From Gigantopelta aegis (lineage: Eukaryota; Mollusca; Gastropoda; Neomphalida; Peltospiridae): a stretch of 64,000 bases of DNA. The stretch is from NCBI RefSeq assembly GCF_016097555.1, contig NC_054712.1, positions 57,428,681-57,492,680 on the forward strand, written 5' to 3'. Below the pieces are notes generated by a model. It made no database searches. It saw only the letters and a list, made by a program, of their open reading frames with translations, and was not told the DNA's origin. Below are positions 15,631 to 62,554 of the stretch, piece by piece (the first letter of the stretch is position 1; each line of letters begins with the position of its first letter). The position numbers were made by a program, and so were the translations under genes.

Positions 15631-15780
15631 GTTTCTGGTTCTTGTTAACACATTCCACTGTTTTTACCACTAGGAATCGGATGGATGCATTCCCAGTGGA
15701 ATTTTCCGTATTGTCTCTTGTGTTACATACTGAATAACATATCATATCACACATCAGTTCCTTGCAGAGTCCATTATTTT

Positions 15781-16510
15781 CTACAGCAGTGACTCCTATT
15801 GATTCAGCACCAAGAATCGGTGGACACTATTTCCAGTGATATTTCTTCCAGCAGTGACTCCTTACTGATTCATCACTAAGAATCGGTTGACTGTATTTTC
15901 AGTGATATTTCCTCCAGCAGCGACTCCTATTGATTCAGCACCAATAATTGGTTGACTGTATTTTCAGTGATATTTCCTCCAGCAGTGACTACTATTGATT
16001 CCGCACCAAGAATCGGTTGACTGTATTTTCAGTGATATTTCCTCCATCAGTGATTCCTATTAATTCATCACCAAGAATCGGTGGACTGTGTTTCCAGTGA
16101 TATTTCCTCCAGCAGTGACTCCTATTGATTCATCACCAAGAATCGGTGGACTGTATTTCCAGTGATATTTCCTCCAGCAGTGACTCCTATTGATTCATCA
16201 CCAAGAATCAGTGGACTGTATTTCCAGTGATATTTCCTCCAGCAGTGACTCCTATTGATTCATCACCAAGAATCAGTGGACTGTATTTCCAGTGATATTT
16301 CCTCCAGCAGTGACTCCTATTGATTCATCACTAAGAATCAGTGGACTGTTATTTCCAGTTATATTTCCTCCAGCAGTGTCTCCTATTGATTCATCACTAA
16401 GAATCAGTGGACTGTATTTCCAGTGATAATTCCTCCAGCAGTGACTCCTATTGATTCATCACTAAGAATCAGTGGACTGTATTTCCAGTGATATTTCCTC
16501 CAGCAGTGAT
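15781..16510. repeat. 65-bp minisatellite overlapping the ZFAT-like stop codon
   Basis: About 12 copies with AGCAGTGACTCCTATTGATT, CATCACCAAGAATCAGTGGA and CTGTATTTCCAGTGATATTT. The last (rightmost) unit is the coding end of the final ZFAT-like exon: on the minus strand it encodes [16 protein letters not shown] and the TAG stop. The other units lie in the 3' UTR and have TGG or TAG-like variants where the stop stands. Confidence 0.92.
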
Positions 16511-19700: not shown

Positions 19701-21459
19701 TGGGATTGGGCAACTTTCAAGTCTTGTTCTGTTTTACAAATACAAACGTTTTTATAAACTATATGACAAACAGCAAATGTTACAGAATTTTTTTTTTTAA
19801 TAAAATTATGAATCTTTGTTTAAGTAATATTTATTACTGTGAAATACAAAATAAATGTTTTTGGGATTGGGCAACTTTCAAATCTTGTTCGATGTTTTAC
19901 GAATACAGACGTTTTTATAAACTATATGACAAATGTTTTCTAAAAGTACACAGGTTCACTATTCTTAATGTGTTTTTGGATGGGAAAACCTATAGTCCTT
20001 CCCATAGAGAACACCTTTTTTTCATAATATAGAATTTACTACAAGTTATTTATTTTTGAGCAGATTGTTTTCTAAATTGCACACAAAAATAGTTGAACTA
20101 CATCCCGCTCTCAATAAAACATTGATTTCTCAAACATCGGCTACTGGATGTCAAACATCGGCTACTGGATGTCAAACACCGGCTACTGGATGTCAAACAC
20201 CGGCTACTGGATGTCAAACACCGGCTACTGGACGTCAAACATAGGCTACTGGACGTCAAACACCGGCTACTGGACGTCAAACACCGGCTACTGGACTTCA
20301 AACACCGGCTACTGGATGTCAAACACCGGCTACTGGACGTCAAACATCGGCTACTGGATGTCAAACACCGGCTACTGGATGTCAAACACCGGCTACTGGA
20401 CGTCAAACATCGGCTACTGGATGTCGAACATTTGATAATTTTATATAGTCTTAGAGAGGAAAACCCGCTACATTTTTCTATTAGTAGCAAGGGTTCTTTG
20501 ACATGTACCATCCCAAAGACAGGATAGCACATCACGGGGCCTTTGATATTCCAGGTGTGGTGCACTGGCTGGAACAAGAAATAGCCCAATTGGCCCATCG
20601 ACAGGAATTAATTCTAGACCAATTGCACATCAAGCGAGTGCTTTACCACTGGGCTACGTCCTGCCCCCAGCCCCCTACCTCGATAAAACTAAAACACAGA
20701 TTGTTAAAATAAAACTAGTTACTTGTCACACTTGAAGAGCTTGCCGTGCTTGTGAGACGACATGCCAGCGTAGAGCTGTGCGTGACTTGTATGCTTTGCC
20801 ACTGGACTACGTCCTGCCCCCAACCCCCTACCTTGATAAAACTAAAACACAGATTGTTAAAATAAAACTAGTTACTTGTCACACTTGAAGAGCTTGCCGT
20901 GCTTGTGAGACTTGACGTGCCAGCGTAGAGCTGTGCGCGACTTGTACGCTTTGCCACACTCATTACAGAGGAAGGGTTTCTCGGCCGAGTGGCGGAGCAT
21001 GTGGTTCTGGAGATTGTTTTTACTCCGGCAGCCGTACGAACACATGGGACACTTGAACGGCTTGATGCCCTCGTGCATCCACAGGTGTTTCTGCAGTTCT
21101 GAGTTGGCCCGAGTGAACACACGATCACAGTAAGGACATTTGTAAGTGTGACGTCCTGTTAAAAAAAATAAAAAATTAAAAGTCATATATATAATTTAAT
21201 TTCAACTTATTTTCATGCTTATATCCAATTACGTTTCAAGCACACTCTCCTGGGCACACACACACCTCAGCTATCTGGGCTGTCTGTCCAGGACAGTGAG
21301 TTAGTGGTTAGTTGTTACTGGCAGAGAAGTCGGTGGAGTGGTTTTACACCTACCCATTGAGTCGTTAAAACTCGCTCTGGGTGGGAGCCGGTACTGGGCT
21401 GCGAACTCAATACCTACCAGCCTTATGTCCGATGGCTTAACCACGACACCATCGAGAAT

Positions 21460-21491
<32 letters not shown>

Positions 21492-24400
21492 TTTTTTTAT
21501 TTTTTTTTTAATTAAACATTAAAGCTTCTTGCACCATGATGTATTTGTGGTAAACATTAGGTTATTTATTAAAATTGTTTCAGCCATCACAGCCTTTTTA
21601 TTGATAAATTACACATGGGATCTACACCACACAGCATTCAATTTCAATTGTGCTTATTTCATTGGATGTGACAACAGTTATCACTGTGGAGGTACCAAGT
21701 ATTTCCAACAGAATAATGTTGAAGACAAAAACGCTCTGTAAAGTGTGAAAATTTAAATTTTAATTTATTTTTGCCCTTATATCTAGAACATTTGGTTGGT
21801 GATTAGTGAGAGAGAAGTTGTTGTAGTGGTATTACAGCTTCCCACTGAGTCATTAAAACCTTCTGTTAGTTGGAGCCGGTCATGGGATATACAGTTACAT
21901 GTAGCATCTACCAAACCAACAGCTTAACCACTACATGTATGTCAGCAAATCCCCAGTATTTGTGACTACATGAACCATTACCCAGCTTTCCCTGGATCTT
22001 GTGGGTGTGGCTTAGCTGATATCCTGTCATCCTAGCCACCTCCTCCTTGTCAATCTCAGGGTGCACCAGCAACAGATGACCTCGGAGAACTTTCAGGCTG
22101 AAATATAACAGAAATGAATCAATGTAGCTCATTCTGAAGAACATGTGTATAGCACAACTATCTTGGTCAGTAATAATTTGGCCAAGATCAAAAAAAATTA
22201 ATACCACAGTAACTGTGATCCTTGACATGTTACTTTAAGCCCTTTAATGTTTTGTAAGCAGCAAAGATCCAATGCCGCTCTTCCTTCACTGACTACATGC
22301 AGATAAAATGAACATAAATAAAAGTTATTGAAGACTGTTATAAGCCATAACACTGCTGGTAGTCATTATGGTTTAATACAAATAAAAACACATTCAGGAA
22401 AGAAAAAAAAGAGAAATATATTTCTTTAATGACATGATCTCAAATAAAAAAAAAAATCAATATGGCTATCAGATTGCTAAACACCCAGTCTAGTTTGTGA
22501 GAAACGAAAGTCATTGCCAATACAAAGTCTATGAATAGCAGTAAGGTATACCGGCAATGGAACACTGGTTGGGACAAGAACCACCCACACCACCCTCAAG
22601 TCCATTGAGACCAATCTATTCCACGATCAAACCTCGGATAAGCACTCTACCACTGAACTGCAATCCTTCAACACATTCAGAAACCTATTGCACTGAGGTT
22701 ACCCCCCCCCCCCCACCACCACCACCCCACCCACCCAAAAAACAAGTATTTTGAGTGTACTGCAAAACAATACATGTCCCTGACTGGGCCTAAGAAATTA
22801 TTTTTATATCCTAAGTTGCAACTTAATATGATAAAATTATATACAAAATGTTAACTCAATATCTTGAGGCATTACCAAAACGTCCGGAAACTGAATATGA
22901 GACCAACAGACAGACAGATATGGACAGACAATTAGAATTGAAACCTATAGTTCTCTTCATTTGGACTGGTAAGGGACTAATAATGTGACAATAACAAAAA
23001 AATACTAACACATCTGCTAACCCTCAATGAATTTTGTTGAGTATCTATTAAAGTGAAGTACCTGTTGAACTTCTGTTTGCACTTTTCGCACTCGAGCCCG
23101 GTGATGCCGAGGTGTTTGAGGTGGTGACTCCACAGCTGACTGCGGCTGTTGGTGACGAACGTGCACTCCTTACACTGGAACTGGACGTGGCCGTGTTCGC
23201 GGTCCACGTGCTGTCGCAGAATCTCCTTGCTGATGGCGCGGAACGAACAGCTGTCGTTGTCACACACAAAAGGTTTGTCTCCTGAAAGAAAACAGAACTT
23301 TAAAATGTTTACGATGTTCACTTTAGTAATATTTTATATAGAACATTTACTACATAATTACCTACCAACTGTCGTCACACACAAAAGGTGTGTCTCCTGA
23401 GAGAAAACAGAACTTTAAAACATGTTTACCATGTTCACTTCAGTAATATAATACATAAAACATTTACTGCATAATTACTTGCTGTTTTCATAAAACTTCC
23501 AATGGGTAGTAAGAATCTATCACTTTTGTATCCTCTCCCTAAATCCGGACTATCCAGTTACTGAAGCCAATCATGCAGACCCCACCAAGGGGATCCATTT
23601 AAAGATAATATTACCATACTGATAGGTAAGGCAGCCAAACGTTACTCTCTTTCAACTAGTCCTGGAGGAGCAGAGTGACTAGCTCCCCTTAAATAGCGAA
23701 CACTGGTCATGTGACAATTACAAGCTTGTCTTATTTCTTACATACTGTATATTAGGTATCCATTAAAGTGGCATTCATAATGATGCTAGAATGCAACGTA
23801 ACTGTACCACATTGGCTATTGGATGTTAAACATTTGGCAATTCTGACATATAGTCATCAGAAGAAACCCGCTACATTTTTCCTAATGCACAAAGGGACCT
23901 TTTATATGCACTTTCCCACAGACAGGAAAGCACGTACCACAGCCTTTGACCAGTTCTGGTGCACTGGCTGGAACAAGAAAAATCCCAATCAGTTGGATAC
24001 ACGTCGAGGTGATTCGATCATGTGACACAAACACCTCAAATGAGCTACATGTAAATACTGCCTTAATACACAAACATAATTCTGACCTGGTTTGGTTTTT
24101 TCTTCAAATGCAATGTGTTGTCATTTGAATGTTTGAAACTGTGTGGCTTCATTTTTTAAATTTCCCAAATTAAAATGGTACAGTTGTTAAGGTGCAATGG
24201 TTTTCGAAAACTTGCGATATAAAGATTATGATTCACTTATTATTTCCCTAAGGCCACTACACAGACAGGACAAAAAAAGTGACATACAAGTTGTAGAATA
24301 GTGGAAATGAGAAGCCTATTCCTGAAAGAAGTCAATCTTATGATTTACCACTCATCAAGCAGATTCTTGGGCACTGAACCAAATTTCACTATAATTGTGA

Positions 24401-27400
24401 CAATGGAACAAAGCAACTAAAGTTTAAAGTTTGTTTTGTTTAACGACACCAGTAGAGCACATTGAATGATTAATTATCAGCTATTGGATGTCAAACATTT
24501 GGTAATTCTGACAATCTTATAGAGAGGAAACTCACTACATTTTTCCATTAGTAGCAAGGGACACTTTATATGCACCATCTCACAGACAGGATAACACATA
24601 CCACAGCCTTTGATATACCAGTCGTGGTTGGAACGAGAAATAGCCCAACAGGCCTCCAGTAGGGATTGATCTCGAACCAACCACAAACCAAGTGAGTGCT
24701 TTACCACTGGGCTACATCTCACCCTTCTGACATTGAACCAAGTTTCAGAATAATTCTAACAGTGGAACAAAGCCACAGACTATTTTGTGCAAACAGTGAA
24801 AGCCCATTACCTGTGTGTGTTCTAACGTGTGGCTCGAAGTCCGTCTTACTGTAGAAGAGTTTACCACAGAATTCACACTCCTCTGTTCCAAACGTCTCAC
24901 GCAGCTTGTGAAAAATCTCCATTGTCATGTTCCGGTAACCTAGTTTCTCTATGAAGTCTTTCAGCTCTTTGTCCGTGCCAGTGGCGGCCTTGTTGTCAAT
25001 GTTCTCTTTCTCTTGGTCGTTTGTTCCTGCACTGTCCTCATCAAGATCCACTGCGTGGTCTTTCTTCAGTACATCGTCACCGGTGGCATCTTTGTTACAA
25101 ATTTCGTCAATTTTTTCCTCAAGCTCTTTACCAACTAGCTGTTCAGACAAATCATTTTCAATGTTTGTAACTTCTGCTTGTGGGTTACAGCCTTCAGTAT
25201 TTTGCAAAATGCTGGTACAAGTTTGTTCTTTCAATTCTGCAGTTGACAGTTTTTCAAAACTGGCGCTGTTTTTATCAGAATCTTCCACCGTAGAAAGGTT
25301 TTCAGTGAGCTCAAAAGATGGTGGGTTTTTAAAACTGGAATTATTGTTTTCGGGATTGTCAGCAATAGAAGATTGTTCATTTAGTTCCAAGGCTGATGAC
25401 GTTTCGAAATTAGAGTTATTTTTATCACCATCACCAACCATTGTTGATGATGTTGTATTCAAACTACAATTGTTTTTATCACTGTCTTCAGGAAGAGATG
25501 GTTGCACATTCTCTTCTGAAGTCATTTGGGGTTCCAAACCAGTATTAGCTTTAATGATATCATTAGACGTGTTTTCCAGTTCTTCTGAAACTGGTTTTTG
25601 TAAAGACTGAAGAAGACCGTTCGTAGTCATCTTGCATTCACCATCATTGGAATTTTCGTTATTTTTCGAACCCAGACTTTCGTTCAAGTCCGACTTGCCG
25701 ATGAGAGACAAATCTGAGTCGTCAACCGCACCTAGGACGACATCGTCGGGGATGTTCTCAACGGCCACCTCTTTCAGTTCGTCGGGGATGTTGACGTGCT
25801 TGTTTTTAATACTGTCCTGGGGCTCGGGCAGGTACAGACTGTTGTCGATGCTCTTCTCGAACAGACTGTCCCACTGGCTGGTGTCGTCCTGCAGGTGGGC
25901 GCTTGTCAGGTGGTCGATCAGGCGGATCGTACTCGGAAACTTGCTCTCACAGTTGAAACACCTGCAGGAGATAAATGAAGTAGACAGATAGTTTTACTAA
26001 CATAAACATTTGGGAAAAGAAAGAAACAAAGAAAGAAAGAAAGAAAAAAAGAAAAAAGAAGAGCATTAGTGGGGTTTTCTACTAGAGCGAAATCCTGCTA
26101 AAATGGACACCCAATAAAAGTAACAAGGCAAGTTTTAAGGGGTATCTGGTTTAAAGAGTTTCTAAGCTGAACTGATATATATATATATATATATATCTAA
26201 TGGACTGTGAAACATGTCTGTGTTACTGAGGGTCCGGTTTAGAGGTGTTTCACTGTACTATAAATATTGGGGAAAAGAAAGAAGGAAAGAAGGAACTAAA
26301 CGTATTAATGCTCTTAACACAGAAAAAGAAGGAAACCTTGGATAGGCTATATAATACATGGAATAAAGCCCATTACAAAACATAGGCCTACATAATTAAT
26401 TAGTGGAATAATTTTAGCATTAAAAAAAAAAACTTGTTTTTTTGTTTTTTTTGTTTTTTTTACATAAAAGGCCTCAAAAAATTATACATATGATTATTTT
26501 GTTTATCCATTGCTCATGCAAGTCTAGTTTTGCATTTGGTTACTTGTAAATAACACTGTGTTTCTGTGTGTTTTCTCAAGTACACACAATCATCTGACTA
26601 CCTGTAAATAACACTGTGTTTCTGTGTGTTTTCTCAAGTACACACAATCATCTGACTACCTGTAAATAACACTGTGTTTCTGTGTGTTTTCTCAAGTACA
26701 CACAATCATCTGACTACCTGTAAATAACACTGTGTTTCTGTGTGTTTTCTCAAGTACACACAATCATCTGACTACCTGTAAATAACACTGTGTTTCTGTG
26801 TGTTTTCTCAAGTACACACAATCATCTGACTACCTGTAAATAACACTGTGTTTCTGTGTGTTTTCTCAAGTACACACAATCATCTGACTACCTGTAAATA
26901 ACACTGTGTTTCTGTGTGTTTTCTCAAGTACACACAATCATCTGACTACCTGTAAATAACACTGTGTTTCTGTGTGTTTTCTCAAGTACACACAATCATC
27001 TGACTACCTGTAAATAACACTGTGTTTCTGTGTGTTTTCTCAAGTACACACAATCATCTGACTACCTGTAAATAACACTGTGTTTCTGTGTGTTTTCTCA
27101 AGTACACACAATCATCTGACTACCTGTAAATAACACTGTGTTTCTGTGTGTTTTCTCAAGTACACACAATCATCTGACTACCTGTAAATAACACTGTGTT
27201 TCTGTGTGTTTTCTCAAGTACACACAATCATCTGACTACCTGTAAATAACACTGTGTTTCTGTGTGTTTTCTCAAGTACACACAATCATCTGACTACCTG
27301 TAAATAACACTGTGTTTCTGTGTGTTTTCTCAAGTACACACAATCATCTGACTACCTGTAAATAACACTGTGTTTCTGTGTGTTTTCTCAAGTACACACA

Positions 27401-30400
27401 ATCATCTGACTACCTGTAAATAACACTGTGTTTCTGTGTGTTTTCTCAAGTACACACAATCATCTGACTACCTGTAAATAACACTGTGTTTCTGTGTGTT
27501 TTCTCAAGTACACACAATCATCTGACTACCTGTAAATAACACTGTGTTTCTGTGTGTTTTCTCAAGTACACACAATCATCTGACTACCTGTAAATAACAC
27601 TGTGTTTCTGTGTGTTTTCTCAAGTACACACAATCATCTGACTACCTGTAAATAACACTGTGTTTCTGTGTGTTTTCTCAAGTACACACAATCATCTGAC
27701 TACCTGTAAATAACACTGTGTTTCTGTGTGTTTTCTCAAGTACACACAATCATCTGACTACCTGTAAATAACACTGTGTTTCTGTGTGTTTTCTCAAGTA
27801 CACACAATCATCTGACTACCTGTAAATAACACTGTGTTTCTGTGTGTTTTCTCAAGTACACACAATCATCTGACTACCTGTAAATAACACTGTGTTTCTG
27901 TGTGTTTTCTCAAGTACACACAATCATCTGACTACCTGTAAATAACACTGTGTTTCTGTGTGTTTTCTCAAGTACACACAATCATCTGACTACCTGTAAA
28001 TAACACTGTGTTTCTGTGTGTTTTCTCAAGTACACACAATCATCTGACTACCTGTAAATAACACTGTGTTTCTGTGTGTTTTCTCAAGTACACACAATCA
28101 TCTGACTACCTGTAAATAACACTGTGTTTCTGTGTGTTTTCTCAAGTACACACAATCATCTGACTACCTGTAAATAACACTGTGTTTCTGTGTGTTTTCT
28201 CAAGTACACACAATCATCTGACTACCTGTAAATAACACTGTGTTTCTGTGTGTTTTCTCAAGTACACACAATCATCTGACTACCTGTAAATAACACTGTG
28301 TTTCTGTGTGTTTTCTCAAGTACACACAATCATCTGACTACTTGTAAATAACACTGTGTTTCTGTGTGTTTTCTCAAGTACACACAATCATCTGACTACC
28401 TGTAAATAACACTGTGTTTCTGTGTGTTTTCTCAAGTACACACAATCATCTGACTACTTGTAAATAACACTGTGTTTCTGTGTGTTTTCTCAAGTACACA
28501 CAATCATCTGACTACCTGTAAATAACACTGTGTTTCTGTGTGTTTTCTCAAGTACACACAATCATCTGACTACCTGTAAATAACACTGTGTTTCTGTGTG
28601 TTTTCTCAAGTACACACAATCATCTGACTACTTGTAAATAACACTGTGTTTCTGTGTGTTTTCTCAAGTACACACAATCATCTGACTACCTGTAAATAAC
28701 ACTGTGTTTCTGTGTGTTTTCTCAAGTACACACAATCATCTGACTACCTGTAAATAACACTGTGTTTCTGTGTGTTTTCTCAAGTACACACAATCATCTG
28801 ACTACCTGTAAATAACACTGTGTTTCTGTGTGTTTTCTCAAGTACACACAATCATCTGACTACTTGTAAATAACACTGTGTTTCTGTGTGTTTTCTCAAG
28901 TACACACAATCATCTGACTACCTGTAAATAACACTGTGTTTCTGTGTGTTTTCTCAAGTACACACAATCATCTGACTACTTGTAAATAACACTGTGTTTC
29001 TGTGTGTTTTCTCAAGTACACACAATCATCTGACTACCTGTAAATAACACTGTGTTTCTGTGTGTTTTCTCAAGTACACACAATCATCTGACTACTTGTA
29101 AATAACACTGTGTTTCTGTGTGTTTTCTCAAGTACACACAATCATCTGACTACCTGTAAATAACACTGTGTTTCTGTGTGTTTTCTCAAGTACACACAAT
29201 CATCTGACTACCTGTAAATAACACTGTGTTTCTGTGTGTTTTCTCAAGTACACACAATCATCTGACTACCTGTAAATAACACTGTGTTTCTGTGTGTTTT
29301 CTCAAGTACACACAATCATCTGACTACCTGTAAATAACACTGTGTTTCTGTGTGTTTTCTCAAGTACACACAATCATCTGACTACCTGTAAATAACACTG
29401 TGTTTCTGTGTGTTTTCTCAAGTACACACAATCATCTGACTACCTGTAAATAACACTGTGTTTCTGTGTGTTTTCTCAAGTACACACAATCATCTGACTA
29501 CCTGTAAATAACACTGTGTTTCTGTGTGTTTTCTCAAGTACACACAATCATCTGACTACTTGTAAATAACACTGTGTTTCTGTGTGTTTTCTCAAGTACA
29601 CACAATCATCTGACTACCTGTAAATAACACTGTGTTTCTGTGTGTTTTCTCAAGTACACACAATCATCTGACTACCTGTAAATAACACTGTGTTTCTGTG
29701 TGTTTTCTCAAGTACACACAATCATCTGACTACCTGTAAATAATGGTTTCTGATACCTTTTTCAAACACACACACAATGTAATCTGTAAATAATTTTGAA
29801 GCTGGTAATGTTTTCCAAAACAAACCACATGCGACTACCTGTAAACAACTATTTCTGATAGTGTGTTTCCCAGGTACATACAAGCCTAACACTACCTGTA
29901 AATAACTCTGTGTTTCTGATAGTGTTTTTCTCAGGTACATACAATCCTAACACTACCTGTAAATAATGTTGTGTTTCTGATAGTGTGTTTCCCAGGTACA
30001 TACAATCCTAACACTACCTGTAAATAACTCTGTGTTTCTGGTAGTGTTTCCCAGGTACATACAATCCTAACACTACCTGTAAATAACCGTGTGTTTCTGG
30101 TAGTGTTTCTCAGGTACATATAATCCTAACACTACCTGTAAATAACTCTGTGTTTCTGATAGTGTTTTTCTCAGGTACATACAATCCTAACACTACCTGT
30201 AAATAACCCTGTGTTTCTGGTAGTGTTTCCCAGGTACATACAATCCTAACACTACCTGTAAATAACCGTGTGTTTCTGGTAGTGTTTCTCAGGTACATAC
30301 AATCCTAACACTACCTGTAAATAACTCTGTGTTTCTGGTAGTGTTTCTCAGGTACATACAATCCTAACATTACCTGTAAATAACCCTGTGTTTCTGATAG

Positions 30401-33400
30401 TGTTTTTCTCAGGTACATACAATCCTAACACTACCTGTAAATAACCCTGTGTTTCTGGTAGTGTTTCCCAGGTACATACAATCCTAACACTACCTGTAAA
30501 TAACCGTGTGTTTCTGGTAGTGTTTCTCAGGTACATACAATCCTAACACTACCTGTAAATAACTCTGTGTTTCTGGTAGTGTTTCTCAGGTACATACAAT
30601 CCTAACACTACCTGTAAATAACCCTGTGTTTCTGATAGTGTTTTTCTCAGGTACATACAATCCTAACACTACCTGTAAATAACCGTGTGTTTCTGGTAGT
30701 GTTTCTCAGGTACATACAATCCTAACACTACCTGTAAATAACTCTGTGTTTCTGATAGTGTTTTTCTCAGGTACATACAATCCTAACACTACCTGTAAAT
30801 AACGTTGTGTTTCTGATAGTGTTTTTCTCAGGTACATACAATCCTAACACTACCTGTAAATAACCCTGTGTTTCTGGTAGTGTTTCCCAGGTACATACAA
30901 TCCTAACACTACCTGTAAATAACCGTGTGTTTCTGGTAGTGTTTCTCAGGTACATACAATCCTAACACTACCTGTAAATAACCGTGTGTTTCTGGTAGTG
31001 TTTCTCAGGTACATACAATCCTAACACTACCTGTAAATAACTCTGTGTTTCTGATAGTGTTTTTCTCAGGTACATACAATCCTAACACTACCTGTAAATA
31101 ACCCTGTGTTTCTGGTAGTGTTTCCCAGGTACATACAATCCTAACACTACCTGTAAATAACCGTGTGTTTCTGGTAGTGTTTCTCAGGTACATACAATCC
31201 TAACACTACCTGTAAATAACTCTGTGTTTCTGGTAGTGTTTCTCAGGTACATACAATCCTAACACTACCTGTAAATAACCCTGTGTTTCTGATAGTGTTT
31301 TTCTCAGGTACATACAATCCTAACACTACCTGTAAATAACTGTGTGTTTCTGGTAGTGTTTCTCAGGTACATACAATCCTAACACTACCTGTAAATAACT
31401 TTGTGTTTCTGATAGTGTTTTTCTCAGGTACATACAATCCTAACACTACCTGTAAATAACGTTGTGTTTCTGATAGTGTGTTTCCCAGGTACATACAATC
31501 CTAACACTACCTGTAAATAACTCTGTGTTTCTGATAGTGTTTTTCCCAGGTACATACAATCCTAACACTACCTGTAATTTGTGTAAATAACCCTGTGTTT
31601 CTGGTAGTGTTTCCCAGGTACATACAATCCTAACACTACCTGTAAATAACCGTGTGTTTCTGGTAGTGTTTCTCAGGTACATACAATCCTAACACTACCT
31701 GTAAATAACTCTGTGTTTCTGGTAGTGTTTCTCAGGTACATACAATCCTAACACTACCTGTAAATAACCCTGTGTTTCTGATAGTGTTTCTCAGGTACAT
31801 ACAATCCTAACACTACCTGTAAATAACTCTGTGTTTCTGATAGTGTTTTTCTCAGGTACATACAATCCTAACACTACCTGTAAATAATGTTGTGTTTCTG
31901 ATAGTGTGTTTCCCAGGTACATACAATCCTAACACTACCTGTAAATAACTCTGTGTTTCTGGTAGTGTTTCCCAGGTACATACAATCCTAACACTACCTG
32001 TAAATAACCGTGTGTTTCTGGTAGTGTTTCTCAGGTACATATAATCCTAACACTACCTGTAAATAACTCTGTGTTTCTGATAGTGTTTTTCTCAGGTACA
32101 TACAATCCTAACACTACCTGTAAATAACCCTGTGTTTCTGGTAGTGTTTCCCAGGTACATACAATCCTAACACTACCTGTAAATAACCGTGTGTTTCTGG
32201 TAGTGTTTCTCAGGTACATACAATCCTAACACTACCTGTAAATAACTCTGTGTTTCTGGTAGTGTTTCTCAGGTACATACAATCCTAACATTACCTGTAA
32301 ATAACCCTGTGTTTCTGATAGTGTTTTTCTCAGGTACATACAATCCTAACACTACCTGTAAATAACCCTGTGTTTCTGGTAGTGTTTCCCAGGTACATAC
32401 AATCCTAACACTACCTGTAAATAACCGTGTGTTTCTGGTAGTGTTTCTCAGGTACATACAATCCTAACACTACCTGTAAATAACTCTGTGTTTCTGGTAG
32501 TGTTTCTCAGGTACATACAATCCTAACACTACCTGTAAATAACCCTGTGTTTCTGATAGTGTTTTTCTCAGGTACATACAATCCTAACACTACCTGTAAA
32601 TAACCGTGTGTTTCTGGTAGTGTTTCTCAGGTACATACAATCCTAACACTACCTGTAAATAACTCTGTGTTTCTGATAGTGTTTTTCTCAGGTACATACA
32701 ATCCTAACACTACCTGTAAATAACGTTGTGTTTCTGGTAGTGTTTTTCTCAGGTACATACAATCCTAACACTACCTGTAAATAACCCTGTGTTTCTGGTA
32801 GTGTTTCCCAGGTACATACAATCCTAACACTACCTGTAAATAACCGTGTGTTTCTGGTAGTGTTTCTCAGGTACATACAATCCTAACACTACCTGTAAAT
32901 AACCGTGTGTTTCTGGTAGTGTTTCTCAGGTACATACAATCCTAACACTACCTGTAAATAACTCTGTGTTTCTGATAGTGTTTTTCTCAGGTACATACAA
33001 TCCTAACACTACCTGTAAATAACCCTGTGTTTCTGGTAGTGTTTCCCAGGTACATACAATCCTAACACTACCTGTAAATAACCGTGTGTTTCTGGTAGTG
33101 TTTCTCAGGTACATACAATCCTAACACTACCTGTAAATAACTCTGTGTTTCTGGTAGTGTTTCTCAGGTACATACAATCCTAACACTACCTGTAAATAAC
33201 CCTGTGTTTCTGATAGTGTTTTTCTCAGGTACATACAATCCTAACACTACCTGTAAATAACTGTGTGTTTCTGGTAGTGTTTCTCAGGTACATACAATCC
33301 TAACACTACCTGTAAATAACTCTGTGTTTCTGATAGTGTTTTTCTCAGGTACATACAATCCTAACACTACCTGTAAATAACGTTGTGTTTCTGATAGTGT

Positions 33401-36400
33401 GTTTCCCAGGTACATACAATCCTAACACTACCTGTAAATAACTCTGTGTTTCTGATAGTGTTTTTCCCAGGTACATACAATCCTAACACTACCTGTAATT
33501 TGTGTAAATAACCCTGTGTTTCTGGTAGTGTTTCCCAGGTACATACAATCCTAACACTACCTGTAAATAACCGTGTGTTTCTGGTAGTGTTTCTCAGGTA
33601 CATACAATCCTAACACTACCTGTAAATAACTCTGTGTTTCTGGTAGTGTTTCTCAGGTACATACAATCCTAACACTACCTGTAAATAACCCTGTGTTTCT
33701 GATAGTGTTTCTCAGGTACATACAATCCTAACACTACCTGTAAATAACTCTGTGTTTCTGATAGTGTTTTTCTCAGGTACATACAATCCTAACACTACCT
33801 GTAAATAACTCTGTGTTTCTGATAGTGTTTTTCTCAGGTACATACAATCCTAACACTACCTGTAAATAACTCTGTGTTTCTGATAGTGTTTTTCCAGGTA
33901 CATACAATCCTAACACTACCTGTAAATAACTCTGTGTTTCTGATAGTGTTTTTCCAGGTACACGCGTCGACTGGCGCTGTAGTCACACAGTTCACAATGC
34001 TGGATGTTGGGAAGGTCTTTAATGTCGTGCACAAACAGATGTCGGTCTCGGTCGATCTTCTTTTTGAACTTCCGGTTACACACGTGACACTGGTGGATAA
34101 TCGTTGCTCCTCTCTGGTGTCCTGACAAATATATTACGATCAATGTCAGTTTTGTAATTGGAAACTTCACTTTGTATAATTAACCACAGTACAAAAAGCA
34201 ACATTTGAACAATAATCTTTATGACCCAATACATTCACAAAGGTAACAGTCATTTCCTCAAAACACTCATACAAAACTCATCATTAAAGTTAAAAATTAA
34301 TCTTAAGGGCATGTTTTATATAAAAATTATTTAAAAAATGACTGATAATATTTCTTTTGTCAAATACAAAATAATTCCAGGCCAATTTTATTTCAAAACT
34401 TATGAACCTTATTTTCCGGTTTAAATTTACTTCTTCAAAGAATATTAGTAGATCCAATGCCAAACAGAGCTGACACTGTTCATTGCCAAACTAATTGCTA
34501 ATTTTTACACAAAGACACTAACACATTTAGTCTTTGGCTAATAAAATTTTAATAATTTTCAAGGAAATATCCTACATACATGTATCTGACAACTGACTAA
34601 ATTAAACATTTGTTCCAGTGCAAGCCCTGGACAAAATTGAGACCCTGAGACAAACAGATCTTTGAAATCATGTTATCAAAAAATTCTGAAAGATTCACAT
34701 TATACAGTTTTAATTATGTGAATAACAGACAATATTTTGCATATTTAATTAAAAATAAAAAAAAACAATAAATAATTTATGTGCATATTTTTAACTGATT
34801 GAAAAAGGGAAGAGCCTGGGCCTGTTAGGACAATGGCAGATTAAATAAAGATTTCAAAAGAAGACTGATCAGAGAAACAAAACCAGTATACTATTGGTGC
34901 TTGTAGTAAAACTAGAAATATATCCACTGAAACCTGAAACCTGTCAAACTGGTGGACAATCAGATACACATAAAACTAGCTTAATACGACAGGTCCCTGC
35001 ACCATCTAATAGCTGGGACATAATAATAATATAAACAAAACTAGCTTAATACGACAGGTCCCTGCACCATCTAATAGCTGGGACATAATAATAATATAAA
35101 CAAAACTAGCTTAATACGACAGGTCCCTGCACCATCTAATAGCTGGGATATAATAATAATATAAACAAAACTAACTTAATACGACAGGTCCCTGCACCAT
35201 CTAATAGCTGGGATATAATAATAATATAAACAAAACTAGCTTAATACGACAGGTCCCCGCACCATCTAATAGCTGGGACATAATAATAATATAAACAAAA
35301 CTAGCTTAATACGACAGGTCCCTGCACCATCTAATAGCTGGGATATTATAATAATAATAATATAAACAAAACTAACTTAATACGACAGGTCCCCGCACCA
35401 TCTAATAGCTGGGATATAATAATAATATAAACAAAACTAGCTTAATACGACAGGTCCCTGCACCATCTAATAGCTGGGATATAATAATAATATAAACAAA
35501 ACTAACTTAATACGACAGGTCCCTGCACCATCTAATAGCTGGGATATAATAATAATATAAACAAAACTAGCTTAATACGACAGGTCCCCGCACCATCTAA
35601 TAGCTGGGATATAATAATAATATAAACAAAACTAGCTTAATACGACAGGTCCCTTCACCATCTAATAGCTGGGATATAATAATAATATAAACAAAACTAA
35701 CTTAATACGACAGGTCCCTGCACCATCTAATAGCTGGGATATAATAATAATATAAACAAAACTAGCTTAATACGACAGGTCCCTGCACCATCTAATAGCT
35801 GGGACATAATAATAATATAAACAAAACTAGCTTAATACGACAGGTCCCTGCACCATCTAATAGCTGGGACATAATAATAATATAAACAAAACTAGCTTAA
35901 TACGACAGGTCCCTGCACCATCTAATAGCTGGGACATAATAATAATAATATAAACAAAACTAGCTTAATACGACAGGTCCCTGCACCATCTAATAGCTGG
36001 GACATAATAATAATATAAACAAAACTAGCTTAATACGACAGGTCCCCGCACCATCTAATAGCTGGGATATAATAATAATAATATAAACAAAACTAGCTTA
36101 ATACGACAGGTCCCCGCACCATCTAATAGCTGGGATATAATAATAATAATATAAACAAAACTAGCTTAATACGACAGGTCCCCGCACCATCTAATAGCTG
36201 GGATATAATAATAATAATATAAACAAAACTAGCTTAATACGACAGGTCCCCGCACCATCTAATAGCTGGGATATAATAATAATAATATAAACAAAACTAG
36301 CTTAATACGACAGGTCCCCGCACCATCTAATAGCTGGGATATAATAATAATAATATAAACAAAACTAGCTTAATACGACAGGTCCCTGCACCATCTAATA

Positions 36401-39400
36401 GCTGGGACATAATAATAATATAAACAAAACTAACTTAATACGACAGGTCCCTGCACCATCTAATAGCTGGGACATAATAATAATATAAACAAAACTAGCT
36501 TAATATGACAGGTCCCCGCACCATCTAATAGCTGGGACATAATAATAATATAAACAAAACTAGCTTAATACGACAGGTCCCTGCACCATCTAATAGCTGG
36601 GATATAATAATAATATAAACAAAACTAGCTTAATACGACAGGTCCCCGCACCATCTAATAGCTGGGATATAATAATAATAATAATATAAACAAAACTAGC
36701 TTAATACGACAGGTTCCTGCACCATCTAATAGCTGGGATATAATAATAATATAAACAAAACTAGCTTAATACGACAGGTCCCCGCACCATCTAATAGCTG
36801 GGACATAATAATAATATAAACAAAACTAGCTTAATACGACAGGTCCCCGCACCATCTAATAGCTGGGATATAATAATAATAATATAAACAAAACTAGCTT
36901 AATACGACAGGTCCCTGCACCATCTAATAGCTGGGATATAATAATAATAATATAAACAAAACTAGCTTAATACGACAGGTCCCTGCACCATCTAATAGCT
37001 GGGATATAATAATAATAATATAAACAAAACTAGCTTAATACGACAGGTCCCGGCACCATCTAATAGCTGGGATATAATAATAATATAAACAAAACTAGCT
37101 TAATACGACAGGTCCCCGCACCATCTAATAGCTGGAATATTATAATAATAATAATATAAACAAAACTAACTTAATACGACAGGTCCCTGCACCATCTAAT
37201 AGCTGGGACATAATAATAATATAAACAAAACTAGCTTAATACGACAGGTCCCTGCACCATCTAATAGCTGGGATATAATAATAATATAAACAAAACTAAC
37301 GACTTAAAATGTTTCCAAGAATTTACAAAAAGAACAAAAAAAGAAACTTGATACTATATGTCTCTGCACCATTTAATACCAGTGGCATAATTTTTTTTTT
37401 AAATGGATTTAAAATTTTCCCAAGAATTTAGAAAAAACTGTACTGTGAGATAAAACCCCCACAAAACCCCTACAACACATGGCAGTTTTCAAACTGTAAA
37501 ATAGGAGAACATCATTATACTAACCTTTGAGAAATGAGGCCAAGTATTCTCTACCCATGGCTGAGAACGGGTGATACTTGCGGATGTGGTTGATCAGTGA
37601 CTTGACAGTGTTGTAGTCTTTCTTACACAGGGCACACTGGTGTCGGCTCGAGCTGTGAGTCGATTCGTGCTCCACCAGGTGGCTCTTGTTCACCGAGTGG
37701 AACGAACACTTCTTACACTTGTAGAACTGACCAGTGTGCTTCCGCATGTGTGTATACAAATTACCTGTAACACAAACAATATATATAAAGACATTTGAAA
37801 GTTTTTCTTTCATATCATGATGCAAATATTCTCGCAATACCATCTTCCTGACCAGTGTGATTCGGCATGTGTGCATACAAATTACCTGTAGGAAATTTTC
37901 ATATATATATAAACACATTTGAAAAGTGCATGTTTTTCTCCATTTTCCATAATTTTAAAAATAGGGAATTTTGTGAAAATGCTTTTCATATCAAGATGAA
38001 AATATTATCGTAACACCATCTTACACTTGTAAAACTGACCAGTGTGCCCTCGCATGTGTGTATACAAATTACCTGTAGAAAAAACATCCTCAAGAAATCT
38101 GCAGAATTATGAACTATAAAGTTTAACTAAGTTGTCAGCAACTGGTTTTGGTGCACTGTGATGAACTATAAAGTTTAACTAAGTTGTCAGAAACTGATCT
38201 AAATGCAAAACTTTAATGCAATATTTAGTTGATGCTGTCCCTACCGGAACAGTCATAAGTACATCTCGCTTTTTCACTTCCAGGTAACACATAAAGGCCA
38301 CATAAATGGCTTGATATGCATTTGTACTTTGCAACAATGTCTCCATTTCTCCCAATTTTGTGATAATTCTCTTCATATTATTTAAGGATTGTCTGTTATT
38401 TTTTTTACGTTCATCATGGTATGAACAAAATAAATCATCTGTAAACTGTGTGAATGGGCAAAGCCGTTCTGACATAAGCTTGCGGATGATTTTTTTTGTT
38501 CATACTGAGATGAACGTAAAAGAAATAACAGACAATACTTATAATTAAATTTGAATCATACAGGCTAATAATAACACTAAAGTGTCATACTTTATTTTTA
38601 ATTATTTTTTTATCTATAAACAATAACGCTCAATAAGACAACTTGCCCAAATAAAATGACGTCATCAGATATGATGTTCCCTGATGACGTAATGTTTATA
38701 TTCATCAAAAAATGAACAAAATCCTGTTGCTACATACATGTATATGTCTGGACCAATGGGATGATGTTATATTGTAATGAATGTAACAGAAATTTAATTA
38801 TATAATGATACTCATAATACCCATCTCCACTTTTTACTTTTCACATTTGATGAGTCCGTGTAGTTGAATGGCTTGAGATCAGTGTAACTTTTTAACTTTC
38901 ACATCTGACAAGTAGTCGCATATGGTATATTTGAATGACTCGAGATCTTTATACACACATATCTGACACTGCAGCCTCATGTGTGCTATACCAAATAAAG
39001 ACACTCCTTACATACACATTTAATGCAATGATGTAATAGTACTAAAAACCATTCTGACCTTCAGTAAAAGAAATCTTTTATCACCTAAACAAATATTTAT
39101 TAAACTTATAACTTTACTGAAAACAACAATTTACCTGCCTGTGACATCCATATATTTATATTTCACTATAAAAATCATCCATTCATTCTCTCTTCTCGTT
39201 CTCTTTTAAATGCAAATTCTTTTTTACATATATTTTACCCAACATATTTGACAAACAAGTCACTTATGATACACTTCAATGGCTTCAAACTATAATAAAT
39301 TTCTTACCTTTTGCATTTGATGAGTAGTCGCACTCTGTACACTTGAAGGGCTTGAGGTCGGTGTGTATGAGACAGTGGAGCCGCATGTGTGACAGTGTTT

Positions 39401-42400: not shown

Positions 42401-45400
42401 AGAATAAGCCTATAAACGTCACCAGCTGGTGACGTCATTAGGTAGCCCATTAACAGACAATGGGTGGTCGGACAGTTAGCGGCTCGAACATTGATGTGTA
42501 ATTTGACATATTTAATCTGTTCTCATGATTAGATAACGACTAATAAAGAATAATATGTTCATTTCTGACATAAAAACTTCTCAGTATTTAACGACTTCTG
42601 TACGTAATATGAACGTAATATGAACGCTACAGAAATTGTCTTTATGACGTCATTACAAAACAACCCTGTTCCTCGCTTAACCTATGACGTATTTCTGCCA
42701 GAAAATTTGTGACCGGTATATCGGTGATTTTACCACCTGAAATTTTTAGCAGGGATCCAATCAGATTCGTTCTTACAAATGTGTTGAATTAGAATATTAT
42801 TATTATATACTCCAAGTCCAAGTGCAGGCTAAATATAGCGATAGGTGAATAGAACTGACGGAAGTTTTTTTCGTCATAGCGGATTGATTTTTGACTTGGC
42901 AGCATTTTTTATCAGCTTGGCGGACCCGTCTGCGAAAATCTTCAGCTTGGCGGTGCAAATTCTCAGCTTGGCTGGTGTATACTGGATGGATGGTTGGATG
43001 AATGGATGATTGGATATATGAATGGTAGGATGAATGCATGGAATTATGGATGGATGGATGGATGGATGATTGGATATATGAATGGTAGGATGAATGCATG
43101 GAATTATGGATGGATGGATGGATGGATGGATGGATAGAGGGTTGGATTGATGGATGCTTGGATTGATGGATGAATGGATGCAAGGATTAATGTATGTATG
43201 TATGGATGGATGCATGGACGCAAGGATTGATGGATGTATGGATGATTGGATGGATGTATGGATGGATGTCTGGCAAATTAGATAGTTCGATGGATGGATA
43301 GACATATGGATGGATGGAAAATTGCAATGCATGTTATTGGCAGTATGTTAACTAAGTTATAAATAAATTAACAAACAAAACCATACAGTACCTTCCATCT
43401 TAATAGCATCCTTTTGGGTGATGTCTATGTAATCTGATGAAGCCAAACACTTGTGTGTAGAAAAATGTCTCTCTTTCGTGAACATCCGCTTGCATCGTAC
43501 ACAGTGCAGCTTCCCATCTTTGTCTGAACATGACAAATAAACAAACACCTACATGTAGTACATGTACATATAATTAATACTGGAACTGTGAGCAGATTAC
43601 ACATTTAAAAACCTTTTAATACCGAAATATTTTACACAGGTACTGGTATCAATTAACATTTTATTACAAATGTTTATAAGATTAACCAAAGAGTTATTAT
43701 TCTTCAATTTTGTTCTACATTTATTTAGCGCTGCCAACATTCATTATGAATGTTAATGTAGCACTTCCTCAACATTTTTAGTAGTGTGATTTTTTACACT
43801 CCTGTTTTGGGTTTTTTTAAAATAAAAATCTGTAATTAAGCTTAAGTTAAGTCTTTAATTACTAGTATTTCTACATATAGTTGTAGTGTTTTGTATTCAC
43901 ATCTATCTGACATTATTAGATCGGTGAAGCTGGTTTTATTGAACCTCTCCTAACAATAATAAACAAGACAACAAACACCTTTCTCTGGAACAGTTGGTTT
44001 CTCAGTCTCCCTTGATGCACTGACAACTGGAGTTTTACCTTGACCTTTACGTGGACGACCTGGTTTCCTTCCTACAATTAATTTTAAATTTTTTAAATGT
44101 ATCCAAATTTGTAAACCAATCCAGAGTACTTCACATTAATTCACCTGACAAAGTTCTCGAGTTTTACCTTAAACTTGATGTGGCCAACCTCGATTCCTTC
44201 GTACAATTAATATTAATAATTGTTTTAAATGTATCCAAATACGAAACCCTACCCAGAGTACTTTACATTAATTTGACTTTAGACTGGGAGATACAATGCT
44301 TAACCTTCAAAGTTGTCCTCCCACTGCTTGCAAAGTATATGGAAATACAAACATGCAAATGTACACTACTGGTATACAAATATATGTAACTGTTGTGATA
44401 CATTCGGAATAACTGCCACATACAATATAATTTTTTAAAACAAGATTCAATAATCTAAACTGTTATTCAAATTAGTCATTCCCAGATGACTGGAAGATAT
44501 CATGTTTGGGGCCATCCAAAGATAATGTTTTTTAAAAGAAGCATCCCCTGCACCCCTTTAAGTAACAACAACTTACCATACTTGATGACTTTTTAAATGC
44601 AATTTCCATGATTTTTTCAGGATAATAAAGCATTTTCCAGCCATAATCAACATAATCTAACAATATTAATATAGCAATGTTTTGACACAAACTATCTGTA
44701 TAAGTAAAATTCTTCTTGTATTACTTTGAATGGAAAGTTTTGAAAATTCTGTAACTTTCAATCATATTCCATGACTTTGCAGGATTTCCCTGACCTCTAT
44801 GAACAGGCACGGCAGCAGCAAGTAGACATTGGGGGGGGGGGGGGGGGGGGGCGCGCGCGCTGGGTGTGTTTTGACCCCAGATATACACTTGCATTAACAA
44901 TGGTAATACTCTCTTCCCCACCCCTCTCTCTCTCCCTTAAGATTTATTACCAATATTTTTTATTCAGAATTATTGGATGGGCTAGAGCCCCCCCCCCCCC
45001 CCCCCCCCAAGACGGATGGACCCAGCTCTGACCATAACACCCACCAGTTTTGGGCGTAAGTGCGGCAGTCTCTGTCTGGATGAGTTGCGAGGTCTCCTGA
45101 CTTGGCTCTTCGTCGATGGGGTTGCTGAGGATGATAACGGTCTGCGTGCCGCCGTCTTCTGACTCAAACGACTCGAGTGTGACGCCGTGGTCAATCCCAT
45201 CACTGAACAGACTCTGCAGAGCAGACGCTGTGTCACTGTGCGGGTCTGAAACGAAAATGGGAAATGTTTGTCTAATGACACCCCAACACGTTTAAGTATT
45301 CTTACACTGTATTGCTAGGCTACTGTATTTATCACAACAAAGTTAAATATTTGTCTAATGACACCCCAGCACACGTTTAAGTACTGTTTCATGGTATAAG

Positions 45401-60795: not shown

Positions 60796-62554
60796 TCATT
60801 TGCATATTTTACTTCCGGCACAATATGCCATCCCACCAATAGGTGCAATGCCTGTCACCATCTCACCAATGGCTCCACTGCCTTGCATCCTACCAATAGC
60901 TGCAATGCCTTTCACCACCCCACCAATGGCTCCACTGCCTTTCACCATCCCACCAATGGCTCCACTGCCTTACATCCTACCAATAGGTGCGGTGCCTTTC
61001 ACCACCCCACCAATGGCTCCACTGCCTTGCATCCTACCAATAGGTGCAATGCCTGTCACCACCCCACCAATCGTTCCACTGCCTTGCATCCTACCAATAG
61101 GTTCGGTGCCTTTCACCACCCCACCAATGGCTCCACTGCCTTGCATCCTACCAATAGGTGCAATGCCTTTCACCATCCCACCACTGGCTCCACTGCCTTG
61201 CATCCTACCAATAGGTGCAATGCCTTTTACCATCCCACCAATGGCTCCACTGCCTTGCATCCTACCAATAGGTGCAATGCCTTTTACCACCCCACCAATG
61301 GCTCCACTGTCTTGCATCCTGCTAATAGGTGCGATGCCTTTCACCACCCCACCAATGGCTCCACTGCCTTGCACCCTGCCAATAGGTGCGATGCCCTTCA
61401 CCACCCACTGATGGCTCCACTGCCTTGCATCCTACCAACAGGTGCGATGCCTTTCACCACCCCACCAATGGCTCCACTGCCTTGCATCCTACCAATAGGT
61501 GCGATGCCTTTCACCACCCCACCAATGGCTCCACTGCCTTGCATCCTACCAATAGGTGCGATGCCTATCACCACCCCACCAATGGCTCCACTGCCTTGCA
61601 TCCTACCAATAGGTGCGATGCCTTTCACCACCCCACCAATTGCTCCACTGCCTTGCATCCCACCGATCCTACCAATAGGTGCTATTCCTTCCACCACCCC
61701 TCCAATGACTCCACTGCCTTGCATACTACCAGTAGGTGAGGTGCCGTTCACCACCCCACCAATGGCTCCACTGTCTTGCATCCTACCAATAGGTGCGATG
61801 CCTTTCACCACCCCACCAATGGCTCCACTGCCTTGCATACTACCAATAGGTGCGATTCCTTTCAACACCCCACCAATGACTCCACTGCCTTGCATACTAC
61901 CAATAGGTGCGATGCCTTTCACCACCCCACCAATGGCTCCACTGCCTTGCATACTACCAATAGGTGCGATGCCTTTCACCACCCCACCAATGGCTCCACT
62001 GCCTTGCATCCTACCAATAGGTGCGATACCGTTCACCACCCCACCAATGGCTCCACTGCCTTGCATACTATCAACAGGTGCGATGCCTTTCACCATCCCA
62101 CCAATGGCTCCACTGCCTTTCACGATGCCACCAAAAGTTGCACTGCCTTCCATCCCACTAGCAGGTGCAATGCCTTCCGTCCCACCAATGGCTGCACTGC
62201 CTTTCACCATCCCACCAAAAGTTGCACTGCCTTCCATTCCGCTAGCAGGTGCAATGCTTTCCGTCCCACCAGTGGCTGCACTGCCTTTCACCATCCCACC
62301 AAAAGTTGCACTGCTTTCCATCCCACTAACAGGTGCAATGCCTTCCGTCCCACCAATGGCTGCACTGCCTTTCACCATCCCACCAAAAGTTGCACTGCCT
62401 TCCATCCCGCTAGCAGGTGCAATGCCTTCCTTCCCCCCAATGGCTGCAATGCCTTTCATTCCACCAATATATCCCCTCCCAACAATTGGTCTATAGCCGC
62501 CATGTGTTGCATGGTGGTAGCTTGGCTGAGGCATTGTAATAGATCGTCTGTAAC
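60796..62554 (-). CDS. Terminal exon of a repetitive Gly-rich protein (disrupted)
   Basis: The acceptor TACTGTTTTAG precedes 62554. The frame opens GYRRSITMPQPSYHHATHGG, YRPIVGRGYIGGMKG. Block one (62100-62450) is an 84-bp repeat encoding GTEGIAPASGMEGSATFGGM plus VKGSAAIG. Block two (60850-62080) is a 57-bp repeat encoding VKGIAPIGRMQGSGAIGGV. A non-repeat end GGMAYCAGSKICK and TGA follow, with an AATAAA 170 nt on. A one-base deletion near 61405 shifts the frame (GAISGW stop), and a CAA-to-TAA change at 60970 would stop the downstream frame. The function is unknown; Gly-rich repeats resemble secreted structural (for example shell-matrix) proteins, which is speculation. The opposite strand is also open (Pro-rich, from 60746 with a signal-peptide-like start), so strand choice rests on the acceptor, the C-terminus and the poly(A) signal. 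Confidence 0.45.

Follow-up and report, generated by a model that had tools for sequence, protein, structure and literature searches.

A minisatellite that probably arose from the 3' end and splice donor of a ZFAT zinc-finger exon in the gastropod Gigantopelta aegis

Results

The ZFAT gene and its repeat-filled intron

A 64,000-nucleotide stretch of the Gigantopelta aegis genome was analysed (contig NC_054712.1, positions 57,428,681 to 57,492,680 of the forward strand; hereafter the window, whose own numbering is used throughout). It carries on its minus strand a gene identified by sequence comparison as the ZFAT ortholog, with the ATG at 46883 and the stop at ~16459. One intron of this gene is occupied by a large minisatellite, the first copy of which includes the 3' end of the preceding coding exon and its 5' splice site, or donor. 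The protein search with the joined exons returned 82 proteins at E ≤ 0.001, of which the top matches are mollusc ZFAT-like proteins. The best match, the ZFAT-like protein of Haliotis rufescens, covers 91% of the searched part at 74% identity; other top ZFAT-like matches come from Argonauta, Patella and Pecten, among others. The PDB matches include chains named ZFAT (2rsi, 2rsj and 2elv). The product is thus a multi-finger C2H2 protein, and the proteins that it matches best bear the ZFAT name. The homologs also set the position of an additional exon at about 22097-21983, between 23062 and 21155.

The exon that adjoins the minisatellite, 34121-33920, is the sixth coding exon in the present gene model; in a preliminary description of the locus it was labelled exon 7. 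Eight finger-like motifs are encoded up to its end, which reads ...GTGTACCTGG...TTATTTACAG/GTAGTG (the slash marks an exon-intron boundary or its equivalent). The split codon AG/G links the exon in frame to RCFNC of the next exon, as described previously, and homologs from three species align to 33922 and then resume at the next ZFAT exon.

Organization of the array

Tandem Repeats Finder (TRF) reports the minisatellite as a single array (Table 1). This array reaches 33962, so that the exon does end within the first repeat copy, 43 bp of which are exonic. The donor, ACAG/GTAGTG, is itself repeat sequence. The intron, 33919-25962, is 7,958 bp long and, as proposed, is filled nearly completely: when the array is split at the donor, 125 monomers spanning 33919-26544 are obtained between 126 donor-like sites, the genuine one included. 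This exact count replaces the earlier figure of about 120. The monomers are 50 to 68 bp long and the array totals 7.4 kb. It is not a chance feature.

The monomers fall into 23 distinct types, arranged in the order A, B, a block of 32 monomers, the same 32-monomer block again, B, S, T, U, and then 55 monomers of two types. Monomer 2 (type B) differs from monomer 1 (type A) by a single inserted base. The two blocks, 1,921 bp each, show 2 mismatches; a single gap is added because the pieces cut for this comparison were offset by one base. In the distal sub-array, types V and W differ solely by a G to A change at the last base of ACAG, position -1 of the donor (47 G, 8 A), and are otherwise identical. 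We read this layout as suggesting that the array began long ago and has recently grown on both sides, the exon-side copies being fresh.

Conservation of the repeat-coded finger

The homologs aligned to the repeat-completed finger number 48, and the 44 scoring >120 were counted. No counted homolog departs from the two H residues, the R that follows the second of them or the C that comes next, and Y, L, and E or D are nearly invariant. The counted proteins belong to molluscs, a brachiopod, nemerteans, a bryozoan, a centipede and ticks. They do not represent 44 independent cases: many are unnamed and several of the tick entries are near copies. The uncounted homologs score 120 (a tick protein, which matches well), 71 (Lottia gigantea), 69 (a second tick protein) and 48 (a fish), and three of these four have no good match at the finger. 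Because the repeat-coded residues belong to a finger kept in 44 of the 48 aligned homologs, the exon sequence is older than the array, which is its offspring. The claim that the exon seeded the array is upheld by this conservation.

Copied donors and their coding consequence

The 126 donors comprise six 9-mers: CAGGTAGTG at 66 sites, including the genuine one, CAGGTAGTC at 49, CAAGTAGTC at seven, CAGGTAATG at two, and CAGATTACA and CAAGTAACC at one each. The genuine 9-mer recurs in 65 of the 125 copied donors, termed decoys here, and CAG/GT is kept in 116 of the 125; the preliminary description had spoken of over 100.

Read into the intron, the exon frame gives R and then TAG, so that the stop had been correctly placed just past the donor. 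When each donor is joined to the next exon, the frame stays open for donor 33920 alone (1 of 126). All 125 decoys lead to the same stop directly after the exon, at residue 67 of the joined piece. Truncation through decoy use had been foreseen on this ground; it would follow eight finger-like motifs, however, and not nine as was stated. Pseudo-exons of one to five monomers behave alike, with 615 of 615 joins reaching a stop within 80 residues. Because only donor 33920 leaves an open frame and the homologs align to 33922, full-length mRNA would have to use the first donor, as judged from conservation.

The running exon frame is lost within the array because 123 of the 125 monomers have lengths not divisible by 3. 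It had been proposed that all monomers but those at the exon have left the finger frame. This holds for the running frame and for the exact half-finger, which only monomer 1 retains, but near copies are common, the half-finger being matched with at most three changes by 63 of the 125 monomers. In 42 monomers one of the frames encodes the peptide HYQKHRVIY without change, and the residue before YL in the monomers is M.

Other duplicated ends and arrays

A survey of tandem duplications (score cut-off 32 or more, here and in the smaller set below) covered 23 exon or coding ends of the gene, a few of them approximate, with three 3' ends left out. Six of the 23 ends, that of exon 34121-33920 included, lie in tandem duplications, the rate being 40.9% for 1,500 positions drawn at random from the gene span; that a duplication should reach over an exon edge is therefore expected. 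A smaller edge set gave 4 of 16, compared with 28.7% of 600 random window positions. An array that touches an exon edge is within what blind duplication gives in the ZFAT gene. Six big arrays total 12,202 bp, next to a gene span of 30,500 bp, and one of them lies partly past the gene end. Outside these arrays the null is 6.3% and four of 21 ends are duplicated, a marginal excess (p about 0.05, worked by hand). Special targeting of exon edges was considered and rejected, as the edge counts give no strong enrichment and likewise no protection.

The other duplicated ends are listed in Table 1. The duplication of a second exon 3' end together with its donor possibly represents an early stage of the same process, and the array at the coding end is apparently a second one seeded by a coding end. 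The three duplicated 5' edges, near 44071, 37764 and 23281, could possibly yield decoy acceptors.

A large array at 34972-37298 (65 bp x 35) takes up roughly two thirds of the preceding ZFAT intron. At 60829-62469, on the plus strand, an array of a 57-bp (19-codon) repeat overlaps a 586-codon open frame of that strand.

Table 1 Features of the ZFAT locus and its tandem duplications (window coordinates).
Feature	Position	Strand	Description
ZFAT coding exon	33920..34121	-	Encodes two C2H2 fingers; repeat sequence completes the second; phase 2 at its end
Genuine 5' splice site ACAG/GTAGTG	33914..33923 (boundary 33920/33919)	-	Lowest matrix score among six donors scored
Whole minisatellite	26541..33962	-	TRF: single array, period 58, 125.8 copies, 93% matches, score 9,341
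Exonic part of first repeat copy	33920..33962	-	43 bp, TGTACCTGG...TTATTTACAG; codes for the end of the second finger; protein conservation
Monomer 1 (type A, 60 bp)	33860..33919	-	Exon-derived 43 bp identical to exon; sole exact half-finger; begins GTAG
Higher-order block 1	31878..33798	-	32 monomers, 1,921 bp
Higher-order block 2	29957..31877	-	Same 32-monomer order; two of 32 types each changed by one base
Aberrant monomers S, T, U	29734..29895	-	57, 55 and 50 bp; T and U have diverged and stand as relics between two sub-arrays
Distal sub-array	26544..29733	-	55 monomers of 58 bp: 47 type V, 8 type W
Next ZFAT exon	24811..25961	-	Starts G/TGTTTCAACTGT; gives RCFNC once joined
Second exon 3' end with donor (CAA/GTAACT), duplicated once	20639..20957	-	Exon 21155-20876; 20957-20792 matches 20802-20639, 94.6% over 166 bp
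Array at coding end	15775..16509	-	C-terminus of last ZFAT exon and stop in first monomer; 65 bp x 11.3
5' edge of exon 37764-37525, three copies	37711..38086	-	38086-38019 at 89.7%, 37924-37848 at 84.4%
Acceptor and 5' edge of exon 23281-23062, two copies	23256..23478	-	117 bp apart, 88.9%
5' edge of AT-hook-like exon (about 44071), two copies	44030..44273	-	129-bp period

Discussion

Origin of the array and use of the first donor

The array is probably the result of an ordinary tandem duplication across the exon edge that was later amplified and is tolerated through use of the first donor. This reading is carried by the layout, homology, polarity and coding outcome described above. A tandem duplication of ~60 bp would have covered 43 bp at the 3' end of the conserved zinc-finger exon and ~17 bp of the intron, the donor included. 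Unequal exchange or slippage would then have grown the unit to 125 monomers, including one recent doubling of the 32-monomer block. With the first, exon-bounded donor in use, the entire array would be removed with the intron, so splicing would continue. The same blind process would also have duplicated the five other exon or coding ends of the ZFAT gene.

Several points weigh against this reading. The genuine donor has a matrix score of 4.79, which equals that of 65 decoys and is lower than that of the two CAGGTAATG copies at 7.36; the donor and acceptor matrices are approximate human frequencies and not a mollusc model. In the folding model, the genuine donor is among the least accessible of the 126 (6-mer ranks of 126, 126 and 117 of 126 at three window sizes, and 9-mer rank 123 at each). 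When a donor is duplicated experimentally, the intron-proximal copy can be the preferred one, which is the opposite prediction. Lastly, the array-free ancestor is one that we infer.

The label of weak donor for the genuine site is not firm because U1 duplex energies order the donors otherwise than the matrix does, placing the genuine site second of six at -9.4. As the matrix score of the genuine donor is not above those of the decoys and predicted folding closes it as much or more, intrinsic strength would not explain use of the first donor. Position would explain it, this being the first donor past the acceptor of the exon, which fits exon definition and the human factor VII case discussed below.

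Masking of the decoys by hairpins was considered as a reason for the choice of the first donor and rejected, the genuine donor being predicted as closed as the decoys or more so. The proximal monomers (29896-33919, minus strand) carry the reverse complement of the donor core CAGGTA, namely TACCTG, which the relics T and U lack, and the distal monomers (26544-29733, minus strand) hold TACTTG, with one G-U pair. At window 150, the predicted 6-mer opening averages 0.008 for the proximal donors, which are strongly paired, whereas six further donors of the gene range from 0.037 to 0.095. The distal donors, at 0.041, do not stand apart from these six. Constraint on the decoy donors was also rejected. 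The -1 G, one of four key bases in the 58, is the sole base that varies in the 55 distal monomers, and a single variant of this kind is weak evidence.

Alternative explanations

A regulated splicing switch appears improbable. Decoy donors or monomer pseudo-exons would cut ZFAT short after eight finger-like motifs or direct the mRNA to decay, with copy number tuning the amount, and this would be consistent with the intact CAG/GT of most decoys, with matrix scores that equal the genuine one in 65 decoys and exceed it in two, and with the single stop that every decoy shares. However, the -1 G is lost in 8 of the 55 distal monomers, and the stop stems from a unit that starts with GTAG, so selection is not needed for it.

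There is little likelihood that the array length is wrong or that a block was doubled in assembly. Blocks of 1,921 bp with just 2 differing bases are what such an artefact could leave. Nonetheless, the 23 monomer types in set order and the relics between the sub-arrays are unlike a collapse or a simple misjoin, and the copy at the exon edge is independent of the array length. The sole N gap in the window, 2083-2282, lies away from the array and has no bearing on this question. An equally slight likelihood attaches to a functional bank of donors, in which decoys of equal strength with one shared stop are used at a controlled rate, either directly or via scarless recursive joins. The number of monomers would then set the amounts of full-length ZFAT versus eight-finger ZFAT or decayed mRNA.

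Stepwise, scarless removal of the array by recursive splicing, in which the AG of a monomer is joined to the donor and rebuilds it (TTATTTACAG/GTAGT at most monomer ends), is very unlikely. CAG stands immediately before GT at 116 of 125 monomer ends, like the recursive sites (Y)nNCAG/GTAAGT as given in the relevant part of PMC5126111. Unlike in those sites, however, the polypyrimidine tract of the ZFAT monomers appears weak. On the approximate human matrix, six real acceptors score from 4.55 to 16.61, and the acceptor-like scores of three monomer types are 2.57, 4.02 and 4.70; the intron is only 8 kb.

The reverse polarity, in which a pre-existing satellite or mobile repeat invaded the intron and replaced or created the exon end, is close to refuted on the aligned homologs: the 43-bp identity of the exon end and monomer 1 could come from homogenization in either direction, but none of the 44 counted homologs departs from H, H, R and the C that follows, and an invading repeat would not match the finger of the family.

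Comparison with known systems

No literature on this ZFAT array was found among Creative Commons-licensed PubMed Central papers, and nothing about the layout of the repeats was gained from PMC6783214 or PMC2423196. Borensztajn 2006 is said to be the primary paper on the intron 7 repeats of human factor VII (F7). As outlined in a section of a review, the authentic donor of F7 intron 7 belongs to the first repeat in a series of 37-bp units whose number varies, and solely the most upstream repeat 5' splice site is used, by "oriented scanning" (PMC6627357). The ZFAT gene shows the same layout: the genuine donor is inside the first monomer of an intronic minisatellite and donor copies follow in the downstream monomers. 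The preliminary description called the arrangement very unusual; as a statement on its kind this is not supported, given this F7 layout as the review portrays it and the five other duplicated ZFAT ends. Unlike the 37-bp F7 repeats (PMC6627357), the ZFAT array has 125 monomers of 50 to 68 bp over 7.4 kb, and its first-donor use is presumed. It further differs from what that section relates of F7 in the 43-bp exonic part that codes for half a zinc finger, the higher-order block and the diverged distal sub-array. The ZFAT array appears to be of the same kind as the F7 array, and is much larger.

Minisatellites at exon-intron boundaries are reported for human segmental-duplication genes in the portion of PMC2812944 that concerns them. 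Like the ZFAT array, these are tandem repeats that straddle the boundary and are able to change splicing there. The gene-modifying minisatellites in that account average 30-bp units x 4, with new introns reported at boundaries, whereas the ZFAT array is large. Intron gain through tandem duplication of segments that contain AGGT or cross a boundary is treated in part of PMC4974935, which cites fission yeast genes with several 24-bp AGGT copies that are spliced as one intron. Splice signals are copied by tandem duplication in those cases as in ZFAT. Unlike them, as far as they are set out there, the ZFAT array is contained in an existing intron, the donor of which it multiplies; a new intron is not apparent in it, though no dedicated test was made.

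Significance

The array is real and was rightly read as seeded by the exon, although it is less unique than claimed. It offers a natural experiment on the choice of one 5' splice site among >100 near-identical ones, in which 65 decoys share the true 9-mer, two score higher, and only the first site yields the full protein. The rule suggested by F7, that the most upstream site wins, becomes testable at ~125 copies and outside mammals, and, given its size and the doubled 32-monomer block, the array is well suited as a natural test of how splice sites are chosen. The locus also shows that, in an animal gene rich in duplications, large minisatellites can be seeded by the edges of coding exons.

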